The position numbers and the translations under genes are program-made. A stretch of 64,000 nucleotides of DNA from Acorus gramineus (Eukaryota > Streptophyta > Magnoliopsida > Acorales > Acoraceae), in NCBI GenBank assembly GCA_030737835.1, contig JAUJYN010000012.1:11642729-11706728 (forward strand). Reading direction: 5' to 3'. The notes beneath the pieces are model-generated. The model worked only from the letters and a program-made list of their open reading frames with translations. It was not told the DNA's origin and made no database searches. This document shows, piece by piece, positions 2,701 to 44,635 of this stretch. Position 1 is the stretch's first letter, and each line of letters starts with the position of its first letter.

Positions 2701-3013
2701 ATTATAACAATATTTCACATCTCTCTGCACAATCTCTCATCAACAAATATCCCCACCATAGACGTAGAAACCTTAAAACCTTATTGATTCTCACATTCCA
2801 TGTGGATGCAAAAACTAACAACATTGGCACACAAAGTAGTGAAACCAATGTGTGTGCACGTGGAATGTCTTGCATTCTGATTATTGGATTATCAAAGAAG
2901 AACTACAGTAATGGACTTTTCTATAGTGAAAATGTTATTTGCTACTATGAACAAAATGTGGGTAGAGAAATTTTTCACATAAATATATGTGAGGGTATTA
3001 TGATAAGTTTAAT

Positions 3014-3525
3014 GGAAAAATCCACATAACCCCCTGTAAACTGTTTAAAATTCATATAACCTCCTGATTTTTCCTGAAGTCCATATAACCCCCTCAAAAC
3101 ACATATTTAAATCCAAATAACCCCTTGAGTTAAACTTCTGTTAACATATGCCCCTGCAAATATTCAGTTTGATTAACCCTGACTGAAAACACAGTATACC
3201 AAAACCCTTTATAAATTGTTAAATATGCGAAAAACACTTTATAAATGACGATTTTACTTGGAGGGATAAAATCATCGTTTACAGAGGATTTTTTACATTT
3301 TTGACACATTATGTGGTTTTTGGTATACTATGCTTTCAATCAGGGTTAACCAGACAAAAATATTTGTAAAATAATCCTAATATATCAACGAAAATTTAAT
3401 TTATATAGCTTTTTGGATTTATATATATGTTTTTAAGGGGTTACATGGACTTCAAGAAAATCAATGAGTTACATGTATTTCATGTAGTTTGGGGGAGGGG
3501 GGGGGGGTATATGATTTCTTCCCTA
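3014..3525. repeat. Fold-back repeat, CCATATAACCCCCTG family, copy 1
   Basis: The left arm starts GGAAAAATCCACATAACC and the right arm ends as its degenerate reverse complement, after a poly-G run near 3491-3508. Repeated segments reading like CATATAACCCCCT and AAATCCAAATAACCCCTTGAG are mirrored across the centre. Related copies lie at about 4093-4606 and 17263-17798, with an isolated arm at 34404-34560. I could not identify a clean target duplication for this copy. Confidence 0.55.
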
Positions 3526-4092: not shown

Positions 4093-4606
4093 AAGGAAGG
4101 GGACAAATCCACATAACCCCCTGCAAACTATCTGAAATACATATAAATTCCTGACTTTCCTTAAAAGTTTTTTATGATTCCCGAAAACACCCATGTAAAT
4201 CTAAATAAGGGGAATATTATGTTTGATTAACCCTTACTGAAAACGCAGTATATCAAAAACCTCCTACAATGTGTTCAAACGAAGAAACATTATCTATAAA
4301 TAATGATTTTATAGGGTTTTTATAATCTATTTGGATGGGTATAATCATCATTCATAGAAGGTTTTCACATTTTTAACACATTGTAGGACGTTTTGATATT
4401 TTGTATTTCCAGTCAAAGTTAACCAAATGGAATATTCACATAATATTCTTCATTTGTCCACGAAAATTTAATTTACGGGCTATTGATATTTACTTAGGTG
4501 TTTTCAAGGGATTATATGGACTTCAAAAAAATTTAGGGGGTTATATGAATTTAAGACAGTTTACAGTTTATGTTTATGGGGGGATTGAATTTTTCACAAA
4601 TAAATA
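4093..4606. repeat. Fold-back repeat, CCATATAACCCCCTG family, copy 2
   Basis: It begins near ACAAATCCACATAACCCC and ends near the mirrored sequence before TTTTTCACAAAT. The arms are similar to copy 1 and, in part, to the outer ends of the Mutator-like element at 9642-10672. It carries no coding sequence. Confidence 0.55.
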
Positions 4607-16549: not shown

Positions 16550-17262
16550 TTGGCCTTAAATAGGTCCTATATTTTTTAATTATTGAATGGGATATCACGT
16601 TTTAAGGGGGGGAATTTTGTGGTGGTTACAGGTCACGTAAAAAAGATTCGACTATATAATGCACATTATGGGGGTCCGTCTGTTGCTACAATAAGCCTAG
16701 CATATTTACTTCATCAGAGAATCAGATAGTGACGAACCTTAAACGTGTTTGTTGAAAGAAGGATAATGTGTGAATATATGATTATTATTCAAAACAAAAA
16801 AAAATATTTTTTTTTAATATGAATATAAACTGTAATAGTTGTGTTCCATGACAGGTAAAAACTCAATAGTTTTAGGAGTCATGATTTGTTATATTGTAAG
16901 TAACAATCTTATCCAACATATACCAATTAGAAAATTTGAAAAGTGTTGTAAATACATGCATATGAACATGTATATAATTGTAGATGCATGTAATTGTGGA
17001 TGACCTCTTGATGCATGTATACATTAGTGTATCAAATTCATTATAAATTCATGTATGTTGAAAATGCATAAATAAGAGTCATTATGATTATTTTTCCAAT
17101 AAATAAGGGTTTGTCAAACATGAAAAGGAATAGAAATAAAATGAATTCTTGAAGAATATAGTTTCTCTACACCTCTTGTGCTCCAATCTCTTTTGTAATT
17201 TTTTTTGTGTTTTCATCTCTTTCCCTTTTATTTTATAACAAAACGGATTTTTTATTGAAAAA

Positions 17263-17798
17263 GGAAAAATTCAAATAAACCCCTGTGAACTGCCTGAAAT
17301 CTATATAACCCCTTGAGTTTTCCTAAAGTCTCTATAACCCCTGAAAACATTTATGTAAATCCAAATAACCCCCTAAGTTAATTTTCCATTGACATATGAG
17401 GAATATCCTATGAATATTCTGTTTGGTTAACCCACTGAAAATACAGTACACCAAAAAATAGTACAATTTATTAAAAATGCAAAGAACCTTTTACACATAA
17501 CGATTTTACCCCTCCGTATAGATTATAAAACCCTATCTGGAAGGATAAAATCATCATTTATAAAGAATTTTTCACATTTTAAACACATTTTAAAAGTTTT
17601 TTTTGGTATACTATATTTTCAATCAAGTTTAATCAGATTGAATATTAGCAGAATAATCCTAATTTTTCAATAAAATTTAACTCAGGAGGCTATTTGGATT
17701 TACATAGGTGTTTTCAAGGGGTTATACAAACTTTAAAAGAAGTCAAGGGGTTTTAGGATATAAGACAATTTATAGGGGGGTATTTGGATTTTTCCCTT
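17263..17798. repeat. Fold-back repeat, CCATATAACCCCCTG family, copy 3
   Basis: It starts GGAAAAATTCAAATAAACCC and ends as the mirror image (GTATTTGGATTTTTCCC). Internal segments match the copies at 3014 and 4093. It is non-coding, and I could not see a matching target duplication. Confidence 0.55.
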
Positions 17799-34120: not shown

Positions 34121-34167
34121 GATGGGAGGAAGCGACGGTGGAGGCTCGGTCGATCGAATCAGAGGCG

Positions 34168-34250: not shown

Positions 34251-34670
34251 GGAGGAGACGTTCGTTAGTTGGAAGCGAAAGCGATTTTAGAGTGGAATTA
34301 CTGCTTTCGTGCAGTAACAGATCGGATGGGAAAAACAAATTACGAAAGATTTAACCGGGAATACGGATGAATCGAAAGGAATGAATGGAAAAGGAGCTTA
34401 TTTAAAGGGAACAATCCATATAACCCCCTGTAAAATTCCTGATATCCATATAACCCCCTATAATCTCAATATATCCATATAACTACATATAACCACGTGT
34501 AAACACACTATAAATACAAATAACATTGAAGTGAAATCATTATGGCAACTTCCATAATGATTTGGTGTTTACTTGTCAAAGGTCTATTAAATAAACTATT
34601 CTAAAAAAAATACATTGAAGTGATGGTCATGATAATACCATATCATAAGTCATGATCTCTTTTTATGATG

Positions 34671-37492: not shown

Positions 37493-40400
37493 TCAAGACT
37501 GGGAGAGGGGCTTTCGGGCCAAGAAGAAATACATCGGTGTAAATATTTCCTTCCTGCATGAATTGATCATGTAGAAAATCACGCATTGTTGAAGCATCAA
37601 ATTCTAAGCATGGTTCCATCTAAATATGTATTTTTTCTCACAACAAAAGAGAAGATGTGTGAAGCATGACATCAAGTAAGAATAATCACCAGAATTTTCA
37701 ATGCAATTATATAATTTATCCTAAATTATTCAATAAAATGTTTCAAGGAAACTCTGATAATGCGATAGTGGGTTCTCAGTTTAGCTCACCTTCCACCTTC
37801 GACAAGCCCGTCTGCAGCTTTCTCCAAGAAGGATGAGACTCTCTGACTCCCCTCTGGCGCGAGCCCAATGAACTCTAATGCCTTGACCTATGATTTATAA
37901 AACAAAAATTAAAATAAGATAAATTTAGCATAAGATATTGAAAATTTAATATCAAGATAAATAGCGATAGCATCTTAGCATCACATACCAAGTTCTTAGT
38001 AATGAAACGCCCAACCGAGGTTAGACGGAAACTGCTTAAAGAGAAGTGACTTGTGTCAAGGGGCAGGTACCAAGGGACGGGTGATTCGGAAGCAAGATCT
38101 GCTTCCCATATGACCTTAAAAGAATAACCATTAAATTTAGCCACCCATAACCACAACACAACATTTTTATGGATCAATATATCAATTGGTTGTTGCTTAC
38201 TTCAAAACCAGCAAGCTTCAGAGCTTCAAGGCATTTTCTTGTTGTCCTTATGTCCGGCAGGCCATCACCTAGTTCGATTTCTGCCTTAATTCTTTGATGA
38301 TCTTGATTATTGGGATCAAAAGCATCAGTCATGCACCATTCATAAGCAGCAAAATGTTGACCAGGCTTTAACACTCTGAAGATCTCCTTGTAACAGCCCA
38401 GCTGTTGAAATGAGAAATTAAGAAACTAATAAAAATCGGGTAAAAAAAGTAAATGGTGTGTACATGTGTAAGGGTTTGAAAAAGCAATCTTATAAAATAC
38501 ATACCGCATCTGGGGCATGGCACGTTGCTTCTATTGCATATATGGCATCAAATGTGTTATCAGCAATTGGCATTTTCATGAAGTCGGCCTACAGAAACAA
38601 ACCTATTGAATAATCTGTTCTACTCATAAAATAACTCATTTTGTGTTTGATAATGTTCCTACATGATTGGACTCTAAGCATCATATTCAAATATTCAAAG
38701 ATAATAAAAGTGGAAGAATCACCTTCAAAAAGTCACAAGTTTTGTGCACACCTGCCAAATGATTCAATTCCTGCAGGCAAAAGCTATATATAACTCAAAT
38801 TGCTTATGATCACTTTAAAAAGTTCATAATATATTTGCATACAGTTTGACAGAGATAACGCTTTCTGGTAGAAAACTATTATAGTTCATCTCCAAAGAGC
38901 CAATCACAAGTCCGCAATGCAGGAATGAAAAAAACTTACTTTGCCCCTTGAAATTTGGTAATCATTGTTGTTCAGTCCAGTAACTGAAGCAGAGCTGCAG
39001 TAAATTAAAATAAAATTTACAAGATTAATTATAAAAGAACAAAAGATAACTACAAGATGAATAATCCATCCATGTGTTCATCATCATTGAAGTATTCCCC
39101 CAACAATTATGGTTGAGTTAATGAATCCATTTTTTTTCTTTAGTGTTTTTTTTTTATTTACTGATGCAATAATTTTACAGCAAGGTTTAATAGTTAACAT
39201 TGTGTATGCAGATGGGAAAAAATCCATTTAAACTTTGACATCCTATTCTGAAAATTGCAATGCCTGAGAACTAGAAGCTACCTGAATCTAGCGATCTCTC
39301 GCAGTGGCCCACCAATCCCACATCCCACATCCAGCACCTGTAGCAAGAAGTTAAAGGGTCAAATTGCTTATATGTGAAGATCGACATGAATTTTTTATAT
39401 ATATCCCAATTGTAGATCACAATAAATCAACTGCTTAAATGAAAACCTTCATTCCGGGTTTCAAGCCTAGTTGTAAAGCAAGGAAGTGTTCATGACGTTT
39501 AATGCTCTCCCTGAGAGACTCCCCTTTCCATCTGCAGAAAATTGAATGCAAAAATCTAGTAGTTCATCATCAACAATGTGATCAACGACAAAAAATTAAA
39601 TAAAATAATGAAAGTTCCTTAAGATGTTATACACATGAACTAACCTGTGGGCGAAATGGAAAGACTCTCCCCAGCCAAATTCATAGAAGCTGGTAGAAAG
39701 GTCATAATATTTATTGACCTGTGGATATAGAAAGTGATCATCAGTCATCAGATCTCGAAGAAAACTTGACAATTCATATCAGCATATATGAGCAGCCAGA
39801 AGTTCTTTCCTCATTTAACACCAGACATCATTAGCCACAAGTAAGACTTTAATATGTGAAACATAACATAAACTTCCATGAATATAACATCTTACTGTTA
39901 CGTTGCCCATCATTTAACATTCAACAATAAAAATAAGAAAGACAAAAAAAAAATCAGCAATGCAACATGGATGTGGACTTCAGTATCCAGGGAGTGAAAT
40001 GACAGATCGAGGAAGATTTGGACACATCCATGTACATTTACCAGGTAGACAAGAGGTTTCCTAGTAAAGGATAGAGAAAAAATGCTGGATGTGATCAGGG
40101 AAATAAATTGGAATACTTTTGAAGATACCAAGCATCATTGGATATAGTAAATGGAAGTGCTACATTGCATCTCATTCAGTTAGTGTTGAAATATGGTAAA
40201 AAGTACTTTCTGATATTAAGATGTCACATTTCATGCATTTGGAATCCTATATGAAAGGTACACCTGAGATGTGATAGACATGCCCAATTTGCTAGAAGGT
40301 AGAGAAAAAAAATTCAAGAACACATGATTACCTCTTTCTCAAAAATCACCACCAGGATTTAAAAAAAAATAGATCTGTATTTTCATCAGAATAGAGTAAT

Positions 40401-41516
40401 GACAGTAATTTCTTAGAAAACAAAAGGAGTGAGTAGTCTACAAGTGTACTGAAAGTTAATTACGAAAATCAGAAGTTCCAAATACAATCCCTTGAGATAC
40501 AACTAACTTCACATTTATGCCTTATGGAGAGATGAAAAAAATGATAGAAAAATCTCTCACCATATCAGTGTAGTTGGCTTTTCGAGCTTCCTCATCACCA
40601 CCAAAATGACCATGGTATTTCTCATACCTAATGCACGGAGGCAACAAAATCAACACGTAATCCTTACAACTGCCAAAAACACGGGATCAAAGCCATAATG
40701 CTCTATTGAAAAACACTATCAAACGTTTCTCTCCCTCTCTTCTCCAAAAAAAAAAAACATTTACTTATTTATTTATATTTATTAATTTGCAAACCGTAAA
40801 AAGAAAAACTTAGACCAAATGTAAATTGTCAAAATTTCAAATTACAGAGTATCTAAACCAATAAACCTACTAATATTATAAAGATGGATACACAGTGAAG
40901 AGAAGAAAAATAACATATAAAACCATTATAAAAAAAATTGGGCCTTCCATTTATTTAAATGACATAAAATCACTGCCGTCTTCAAACAAACACAAAAAGG
41001 CACTGTCCTCAATCAATTAAATAATGGAAACCAAAATAAATAATTAAGTAAACCTATCACGTTTTTGGCTATTGAGAATCAATTTTTGCACCAAGTGTTC
41101 TTTTTTTTTCAAAAGACAGCTCAATCTTTTGACCTAATTAAATACTTTGATGACCAAAAAGTGAACATTTCAATAAAATCTTTTCAAATAAATAAATAAA
41201 ATATCTCAATACACATATTTTTCTTATATCCCTTTCAAATTCAAGGTAAATCAACACCCAGAATCTGAACATAAAAAAAAAAAAGAAATCCATCCTATCC
41301 TTTCATTCTACACTCCAAAACCATTGTCAATCAAACAAAACCTCTTTTTTTCACTATCTTCTCTCTTTCTCTCTGTCTGCATTAAAATAAAAAACCTGAA
41401 AGAAACAGAGAAGAACAAATCAAACAAAAGAAAACTTACTGATCAACAGCAGATCTGATCTCCTTCTTCTCGATCTTCCCCCCGAGCCCGCTCGCCAGAT
41501 CTATAGCCCCCGACAT
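37493..41516 (-). CDS. SMT1: Sterol C-24 methyltransferase 1 (cycloartenol-C24-methyltransferase)
   Basis: Twelve coding exons, minus strand: 41516-41440, 40627-40561, 39718-39645, 39531-39447, 39337-39282, 38994-38940, 38770-38723, 38588-38505, 38401-38201, 38114-37989, 37887-37790, 37553-37493. All GT-AG and in phase; 343 aa, close to the about 336 aa of Arabidopsis SMT1. It transfers a methyl group from S-adenosylmethionine to C-24 of cycloartenol, the first step specific to alkylated plant sterols, at the ER. Visible motifs: SMT region [16 protein letters not shown] (59-73), SAM motif [10 protein letters not shown] (102-111), region [15 protein letters not shown] (171-182) and YEWCMTD further on. 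There is no N-terminal membrane helix, which separates it from SMT2/3. The ATG is the first in frame and gives the SMT1-like N-terminus. Its TATA box adjoins a Mutator-like insertion. Confidence 0.96.
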
Positions 41517-41692
41517 CTCTCCTCCTCTCTCCCCCTTCAAAAACTACACATCTCAGCCACAAAAAAAAAAAATCAAAATCACAACAAAAAAAAACCGTCA
41601 AAATCACAGACCTCACGATCCAATCACAGGATCCACGAAAAAAAAAATTCCTCTCCAGAATCAACGTCAGAACACGATTTCAATGCAGAGAT

Positions 41693-41750: not shown

Positions 41751-41835
41751 CTCTGGGAATGAATCGAAAAAAAGGTACCGAAGATGCGAGATTCAGTTCG
41801 GGTTTTTTTTTTTTGGGGGTGGGTTTGATTTATAA

Positions 41836-41844
41836 TTTTATATA
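41836..41844 (-). promoter_or_regulatory. SMT1 TATA box, also the target duplication of a Mutator-like element
   Basis: On the minus strand this reads TATATAAAA, about 320 bp upstream of the SMT1 ATG and the best core-promoter candidate. The same nine bases recur at 42749-42757 on the far side of the transposon, so the element inserted exactly into the TATA box and duplicated it. Confidence 0.55.
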
Positions 41845-42748
41845 GGGTTAAAGACATCTAAGTCCCTACAAACATGGAAAAACCCATATAAGTCCCTACT
41901 AAAATTAGGATAGACGTACGAGTCCCTGAAAACTCAGAAAAACCCAATTATCATCTCTGAGTTAAATTTTCATCCAAATTTAACGGAATACTGTCACATA
42001 TAATTGTGTTGATGTTGAAGTCCTTATAAACAGTCATAAAGACAAATTAGTCCCTGCAAAAGATAAAATTACCCCTGAAAGACTTTTACATTAAATTGTA
42101 TACACATTGCAGTCCCTATAAACAATCATAAAGACAAATTAGTCATTGCAAAAGATAAAATTTATTTAATTGCATAGACATTACAGTCCTTATAAATAAT
42201 CGTAAAGATAAATTGGTACATGTAAAAGATAAAAATGACCCTGAAGAATTTTTACATTTAATTGTATAGAAATTGCAGTCTTTTAGAGGGTATTTAATTT
42301 TTAAATTGCAATGTATACACAATTAAATGTAAAATTCCTACAAGTGTATTTTTGTCTTTTAGAGGGACCAATTTGTCTTTACGATTATTTATAAGGACTG
42401 TAATGTCTATTCAATTACATGTAAAGTCTTACAAGGACAATTTTATCTTTTGCGAGGACTAATTTGTTTTTATGATTATTTATAGGGACTACAATATATA
42501 CACAGGGGCAATTTTATCTTTTGCAGGGACCTATTTATTTTTATGACTGTTTATAAGGACTTCAATGTCTACACAATTATATGTGATAGAATATTCTAGG
42601 AATATTCCGTTAAATTTGGATGGAAATTTAACTCAGGGATGATAATTGGGTTTTTCTGAGTTTTCAGGGACTCGTATGTCTGTCCCAATTTTAGTAGGGA
42701 CTTATATGGATTTTTCTATGTTTGTAGGGATTTAGATGTCTTTAACCC
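41845..42748. mobile_element. Non-autonomous Mutator-like element with long terminal inverted repeats
   Basis: A 904-bp element. It begins GGGTTAAAGACATCTAA and ends TTAGATGTCTTTAACCC; the arms keep matching as reverse complements for more than 200 bp (e.g. AGTCCCTACTAAAATT and AACTCAGAAAAACCCAATTA on the left are mirrored on the right). Perfect 9-bp target duplications TTTTATATA flank it (41836-41844, 42749-42757). Long inverted repeats plus 9-bp duplications are hallmarks of MULEs. Inside, a unit of about 70 bp (TATAAACAATCATAAAGACA then AAAGATAAAAT) repeats several times per arm. No transposase is encoded. It stands between SMT1 and its upstream promoter. Confidence 0.85.
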
Positions 42749-44635
42749 TTTTATATATAGGTGAAAGAGCGCGAAAAAAGCAAAAACAAAAGAGGGGAGA
42801 GACACGTTCGTACAGCCTGTTCCGCTGTCTCTTTTCCCTTGGCCTCGACGAGGGTTTGCCCGGTGGGATCGGAGGTACGAAATGACTGTATTACCCTTCG
42901 TCTAGAGGGATTTTTTTACGATGACGGCGATTTTTGGTTGGTGGGATATATCGCTGGAATTTGCTTTTTAACCTGAGTGGTTGTCCGATTGGACAGTTTT
43001 TTTGTTAAGAAAATTGTTTCTCAGGTTAAAGAAATTATGCCATCAAAGAGTTTTAATGTAGCAGTTTCTTCCATATAAATGGTATCCAAAAGTTGGGGTG
43101 GAGGGGGGGGGGGGAGCATTACAGTTTTAAAATTCAGATTTCTATATAATCACACAATCAAACACGCCTTAAAGCTCCGTTTGGGAGTATTTCTGCAGGG
43201 GGACCTGCAGTGCCAGAAATCGTTGTTTCTATAGAGTCATTGAAACATGAAAAAACGGGTTGAAAACAACATATGACAAGTTATTTGTGGGTTGTCGATG
43301 CAACGACGGGAAGGACCATTTGTGTCCATTTCCATGGAGTCCGCCCGACTCCACCGCAACTTTAACGCTCCACCAAACAGAGCCTAAACATGTTTTCAAA
43401 ATGTTCTAAAAAAACCATAATTCAAAAGTTTGTTTTAATTTTTAACATAAAAATTATGGTTTTAGAAAAATGGATAAATTTGTAAAATAAATAAATAATT
43501 TTAAAACAAAACGTAAATCTCAATAAACACATGAAAGGAATTTTTTTGGGGCGTTAGGCCTCAATACGTAGGGGGCTATTTATTTATGGCATGCCATTTT
43601 TGTAGTTTCACGTAGAGTTGTATACTAATTTTCTTCTTCACACGATGTGCGTGTAAACAAAAAAAAATTGAAAAAACTACCCACAACCAATGCCTATAAT
43701 TTTTTAATATGCCATGTTATATATACATAAATGATATAACAAAAATTTTAATAATAATTTAATAAATCATTTATAAAATTTATTATAAAATTACACATAA
43801 AAGAGTTACAACATAAAATGAATTTTTTACATATATACCTCTCAACTAACCTTATATTATAAAAATACCCTATTTGAAACTTTGAAATCAAGAATATCAC
43901 TTGAATATATAGATAAAAAATGATATTTATATACAATTTAAACCTTTTTGAATGATATTATTGGAAATAACAAATCATCAATGATATTTTGCTAATATGT
44001 GATTTGTTAAGGGTATATATACAAAAAAAAAACCATTAAGATTTAGTAGATATTGATGATATTATCCAATTTATATATGGATACAAAAAAGTCAAGAATT
44101 AAATTATACTTGAAATTCTTTAAAAAATCATAATTTTCAAGTATAACTCCGATTGGGGTGACCAAGCTTATTGGAAAGATATATATTTATGACTATCAAA
44201 TAAATTTTTTTCAAAAATGACTATTTTATGATGAAAAGTGAGATCAAATGTGGAAACTCAAATTTGACTCAAAATTAGTTATTTATCATCTATATTTCAT
44301 GATTATCTCAAACTAAATATAATAAAAAAAATAACAATAATAAAAAAAATAATGACGTAGCACCATCATTATCATTCATTCATATTAAAAAGATATATTT
44401 AATGAGTATCTCACATTACCTTTTATTTTTTTCCATTCTTACCTTTAATTCAACAATAATGATTTTTAAGCTCCAAATTTTAGGCTCCATCAAAAACAAT
44501 ATGAGTTGGCACATGTACAATATATATTATATCTTTGTATTGTATTTTTACTATTATTGCTCTTCATATTTTAAGGAGGTGGTTATAAATTAGAATGATT
44601 GCATCAATCCCATTTATTCTTCAAATTTTTTCTTG

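Follow-up and report, generated by a model that had tools for sequence, protein, structure and literature searches.

An A/T-targeting Mutator-like element (MULE) very probably transposed into the TATA box of the sterol C24-methyltransferase gene SMT1 and duplicated that box; the proximal copy probably still drives a transcription start near position 41814, and the old upstream region has been displaced. Positions refer to the window, the whole 64,000-nucleotide stretch of Acorus gramineus DNA that was analysed, except where another location is named.

The element and its flanking duplications

The features of the SMT1 locus are as follows:

37493-41516, minus strand: SMT1 (sterol C24-methyltransferase) coding region, 12 exons, 343 aa
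41517-41814, minus strand: presumed SMT1 5' UTR, 298 nt as reckoned from the predicted start, with one upstream ATG at 41551
41814, minus strand: predicted SMT1 start, at a CA step that the first T of the proximal TATA box precedes by 30 nt
41836-41844, minus strand: proximal target-site duplication (TSD), which is the SMT1-proximal TATA box TATATAAAA
41845-42748, no strand assigned: non-autonomous foldback Mutator-like element, 904 bp, with GGG...CCC ends
41845-41991, plus strand: left terminal inverted repeat (TIR), 138 of 147 bases equal to the right TIR
42602-42748, minus strand: right TIR, 138 of 147 bases equal to the left TIR
42749-42757, minus strand: distal TSD, the second copy of the TATA box, adjoining the old upstream promoter DNA
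42758-42960, strand as SMT1: displaced old upstream promoter region, 48.8% GC, for which no second copy was found among the genome matches scored

SMT1 itself is intact, with its ATG at 41516, a stop codon ending at 37493 and GT..AG borders at 11 of 11 introns, and its protein matches the Pfam families Sterol_MT_C (2.7e-30, 104.7 bits) and Methyltransf_11. The element upstream of it is bounded by perfect 9-bp copies, both TTTTATATA, which in the orientation of SMT1 is TATATAAAA, and its 147-nt inverted-repeat arms are 95% complementary (138/147 matches). An initial annotation of this DNA had described a 904-bp Mutator-like inverted-repeat element within perfect 9-bp duplications, inserted into the likely TATA box of SMT1, and both the duplications and the TATA-matrix match described below bear this out. 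The exact 9-bp TSD and the long TIRs agree with what characterizes MULEs, a TSD of about 9 bp and TIRs of about 100 bp or more. No stop-to-stop open reading frame longer than 59 aa lies wholly within the element, and an Rfam scan of the window gave no match at gathering scores. Folded as RNA, the element forms a foldback over almost its full length, with a free energy of −527.5 kcal/mol compared with a mean of −168.6 kcal/mol for 20 shuffled sequences (z −34).

The two copies of the TATA box differ in their surroundings: the distal copy is embedded in a longer TATATATAAAA run, and the proximal copy is a shortened version of that run with CCC in front of it. The DNA beyond the distal copy (42758-42960) had been noted as GC-richer, which is correct, its 48.8% GC comparing with 29.8% for the element and 34.1% for the window. 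Further out, 43196-43406 upstream of SMT1 is part of another dispersed repeat, and of the 39 other genome matches listed for the distal flank, about 15 fall in it, at 71-78% identity.

For an estimate of divergence, the copies of 880-1,000 bp among the first 39 fetched from the genome were tabulated, 31 in all, together with the window copy. The latter departs from the family consensus at 36 of 904 positions, nine of which are private. At a substitution rate of 7e-9 per site and year, the 36 or 9 differences would loosely date the window copy to ~1.4 to 6 million years.

Probable use of the two TATA boxes by SMT1

The proximal TATATAAAA has its first T 328 bp and its last A 320 bp before the SMT1 ATG, and the distal copy lies 1,241 bp before it. 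With a hand-entered TATA matrix and a threshold of 7.5 bits, the proximal TATATAAAA was the sole match above threshold from the element to the ATG, in keeping with the earlier proposal that this 9-mer is the best TATA box of SMT1. About 30 nt is a usual spacing from TATA box to start in plants, and the CA step at 41814 has this spacing; an alternative CA at 41820 lies 24 nt from the proximal TATA. SMT1 is therefore likely to use the proximal TATA. The suggestion that the gene uses this box, with transposon sequence as its upstream DNA, thus appears to be the most economical reading of the locus; the accompanying suggestion, that transcription starts at both boxes, is less likely in view of the hairpin and the 16 ATGs considered below.

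It is possible, though doubtful, that TATATAAAA is not the true core promoter of SMT1, that transcription starts through the nearby TTATAAATC or in a TATA-less manner, and that the duplication was neutral. The second TATA-like sequence TTATAAATC does lie just downstream of TATATAAAA, and a presumed 5' UTR of 298 nt is fairly long. However, TATATAAAA alone exceeded the matrix threshold between the element and the ATG, and a CA step is found 30 nt from it.

Transcription of SMT1 mainly from the distal TATA and the old promoter, giving a leader in which the element is transcribed or from which it is spliced out, is more improbable still. The distal TATA retains its old upstream DNA and has YR steps 32-38 nt downstream; but the leader of such an RNA would contain the −527.5 kcal/mol hairpin and up to 16 extra ATGs ahead of SMT1, and the proximal TATA is intact. 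Because of this hairpin and these ATGs, an RNA that begins within the element at the distal TATA would probably yield little SMT1 protein. It could instead feed small RNAs.

A genome-wide family with A/T-rich targets

The first 41 bases of the TIR were searched for in the 398.6-Mb assembly, allowing up to three mismatches. This gave 633 forward and 636 reverse matches (1,269 ends), compared with 0 and 0 for a reversed-pattern control, and the element therefore belongs to a real repeat family. Fifty-nine other copies were fetched (39 + 20), the window copy never being counted among them. Five of these were dropped for want of a findable second end (L036, L041, L042, L058 and L065), leaving 54, and a further 16 were dropped for having more than one mismatch between their TSDs. 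Thus 38 of the 54 other two-ended copies carry a 9-bp TSD whose two repeats differ at one base at most and are identical in 26 cases, although some of those counted are homopolymeric or nearly so (e.g. L026, L031 and L040) and could be chance matches. The left flanks of the 38 copies are all distinct, as expected of a multi-copy family at independent insertion sites. Among the TIR ends, L076 and L077, 130 kb apart on C3, have near-identical flanks starting TATATATAAATA and apparently reflect a segmental duplication of one insertion.

The 38 TSDs are 95% A/T, compared with a mean of 66.6% for random flanking 9-mers, and 0 of 10,000 random draws reached 95%. Position 1 of the TSD is T in 84% of the 38 copies and position 9 is A in 76%. 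A strand-symmetrised target model was built from these TSDs, with the window copy excluded, and run on the SMT1 promoter as it would have been before the insertion. Within the upstream kilobase the SMT1 TATA box came first among 992 sites, and within ~500 bp on either side first among 983; over the whole 1,571 bp it ranked sixth of 1,563 sites, five sites scoring higher. In a leave-one-out analysis of the other copies, each true insertion site was ranked against the positions around it: 27 of the 38 sites were within the top 5% and 32 within the top 10%, with a median of 2.4%. The model is informative, yet the preference it describes is not absolute, since the remaining 6 copies miss the top 10%. 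Only two T[AT]7A 9-mers occur in the kilobase that precedes the SMT1 ATG, and these overlap each other at the TATA box; if one G or C is tolerated, the number of such T...A 9-mers rises to 16.

The initial annotation implied that an insertion so exactly at the TATA box was surprising. This impression is not borne out, because the family favours 9-mers made up of A and T alone, and none in the kilobase upstream of SMT1 is a better target than the TATA box. Open chromatin or selection may also have contributed at SMT1, given the five sites that outscore the TATA box over 1,571 bp.

We also considered whether the family belongs with the MITEs associated with (TA)n microsatellites. This assignment was not supported: (TA)5 or longer occurs within 30 bp of 1 of the 38 sites, and (TA)4 or longer within 30 bp of 6.

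Does the family seek TATA boxes?

A specific recognition of TATA boxes or core promoters by the family, mediated for instance by TBP or by open chromatin at start sites, with SMT1 as one of many such cases, is very improbable, even though the insertion at SMT1 falls exactly on a TATA box. Eight A/T bases follow the TIR at 784 ends, which are not all independent, since one copy can contribute both its ends and some loci, such as L076 and L077, are duplicated; TATAWAWA occurs at 11 of the 784, the SMT1 end included. The number expected with equal A and T is 12.25 (binomial p 0.89), and the number expected from the family model is 21.5, so that 11 is a shortfall (p 0.02). With the TATA motif thus showing no excess over the A/T-matched expectation, a TATA-box-specific transposon was not supported. 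In addition, TATAWA is present in only 4 of the 38 TSDs.

The 10 other TATA-flanked ends have no obvious coding start within ~480 bp, the longest ATG-started frames beside them ranging from 15 to 94 aa; this is a weak check because the first exon of SMT1 is short, SMT1 itself yielding a 26-aa frame by the same measure. Genes do occur a few hundred bases or less from some copies of the family. L018 precedes an ATG by 137 bp and CTATAAATA by 48 bp, and L029 is 238 bp before the ATG of an open reading frame with a weak lipase match, just below the Pfam cut-off. These two insertions upstream of likely genes could be taken to favour a taste for promoters, but they are beside TATA sequences and not in them, L029 being 194 bp upstream of its TATAWAW match. 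Insertion may be locally more frequent where promoter chromatin is open.

Proposed course of the insertion

We propose that a non-autonomous foldback element of this large family moved into the SMT1 TATA box. Its transposase would have been supplied from elsewhere and would prefer 9-bp A/T-only targets, typically of the form T.......A, for which the TATA box would have been the best candidate in the upstream kilobase of SMT1. A staggered cut of the Mutator type would copy 9 bp, and a TATA box is ~8 bp, so the insertion would leave a full TATA box on each side of the element because the duplication is longer than the box. The proximal TATA would then keep its old distance to the start site, from which SMT1 probably still starts near 41814, and the former upstream region would now stand 0.9 kb further off, behind the element. 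Upstream control of SMT1 would thereby have been lost, weakened or replaced.

The ancestral state would, judging from the duplication alone, have read CACCTATATATAAAATTATAAATC. A search of the assembly for an empty site with the distal flank as query found only the window itself over 42758-42977 (40 of 64 candidates scored, other matches lying further out), and a search with the SMT1 5' UTR and exon 1 likewise found only itself (1 candidate). Paralogues were sought with a 348-aa SMT1 query carrying the last exon in another frame, which affects only the row for the last exon. A second SMT1-like gene is present at C7 3930628-3932564, with 90% identity in the longest matching exon, but it had no DNA match to the query of SMT1 5' UTR and exon 1. 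Two further genes, at C4 2552576-2553526 and C10 14075052-14075999, have uninterrupted 38-39% matches to SMT1 and are perhaps SMT2-like.

Relation to known systems

The closest parallel is the maize allele Adh1-3F1124, ascribed to Chen et al. 1987 and Kloeckener-Gruissem et al. 1992, in which Mu3 is said to lie in the TATA region of Adh1, its 9-bp duplication having doubled the TATA box. The gene reportedly stays active, with a changed organ specificity. On this account, that allele and the SMT1 locus are alike in having a Mutator-superfamily element at a TATA box and a 9-bp duplication that copies the box; they are unlike in that Adh1-3F1124 arose recently as a mutant and has expression data, involving another element and another gene, whereas the SMT1 case is known from the sequence of a reference genome. 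Among the papers searched for transposons at TATA boxes, or copying them, no closer case was found. What is new here is the member, not the kind of insertion.

Among other Mutator-type elements, the Abermu MULEs are described as having GGG...CCC ends and TA-rich TSDs, the TSD being 9 bp long in 267 of 278 bounded barley elements, and their authors point out that TATA boxes may be found in TA-rich regions (PMC9168764). By this description the SMT1 element resembles Abermu in its GGG...CCC termini and TA-rich 9-bp TSD; however, the Abermu elements tabulated there measure several kb and have a transposase open reading frame, whereas the SMT1 element is a 0.9-kb foldback without coding capacity. 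The microsatellite-associated Mutator-like MITEs of pineapple (PMC8449440) and the MiMs of carrot (PMC8227079) are also Mutator-derived, non-autonomous and directed to A/T targets, but are flanked by (TA)n, unlike the family studied here. Maize Mu has a 9-bp TSD and favours the 5' ends of genes near start sites (PMC2774946), both features in common with the SMT1 insertion; its weak consensus, SW::SWNNNNNWS::WS, contains G/C positions, in contrast to the nearly A/T-only targets of the SMT1 family. Elements at core promoters are likewise described for mPing in rice, where two earlier insertions are reported to have disrupted TATA boxes, the genes nevertheless becoming stress inducible (PMC3782648); but the 3-bp TSDs of mPing are too short to copy a TATA box.

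A broader and tentative idea, which we consider doubtful as a general rule, is that A/T-targeting MULEs with a TSD longer than the TATA box are promoter swappers by construction. The TATA box would be the best target in the GC-richer promoters of plants, the core would be rebuilt at the right spacing, the upstream DNA would be replaced and the insertions would be tolerated. If this were true, such insertions could rewire genes such as SMT1. The locus offers a clean natural case in which the choice of insertion site and the length of the duplication together predict that the core promoter survives and that upstream control is displaced, and the family's target model is simple enough for every TATA box in this genome and in its relatives to be screened for the same outcome.

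Other MULE-like elements in the window

A scan of the window for TIR elements with exact TSDs of 8-11 bp, which decayed elements escape, found the SMT1 element and one weak A/T pair. Three more related MULE-like foldback elements are present at 3009-3503, 4097-4595 and 17257-17798. The first two are 66-72% identical to the third, which is 73% identical to its own reverse complement. Another MULE-like element begins at 34407, for which neither a matching second end nor a second TSD copy was found. Its end is directly abutted by TTATTTAAA at 34398-34406. This 9-mer precedes a minus-strand ATG near 34121 by ~280 bp, and towards that frame it reads TTTAAATAA, a possible TATA box.
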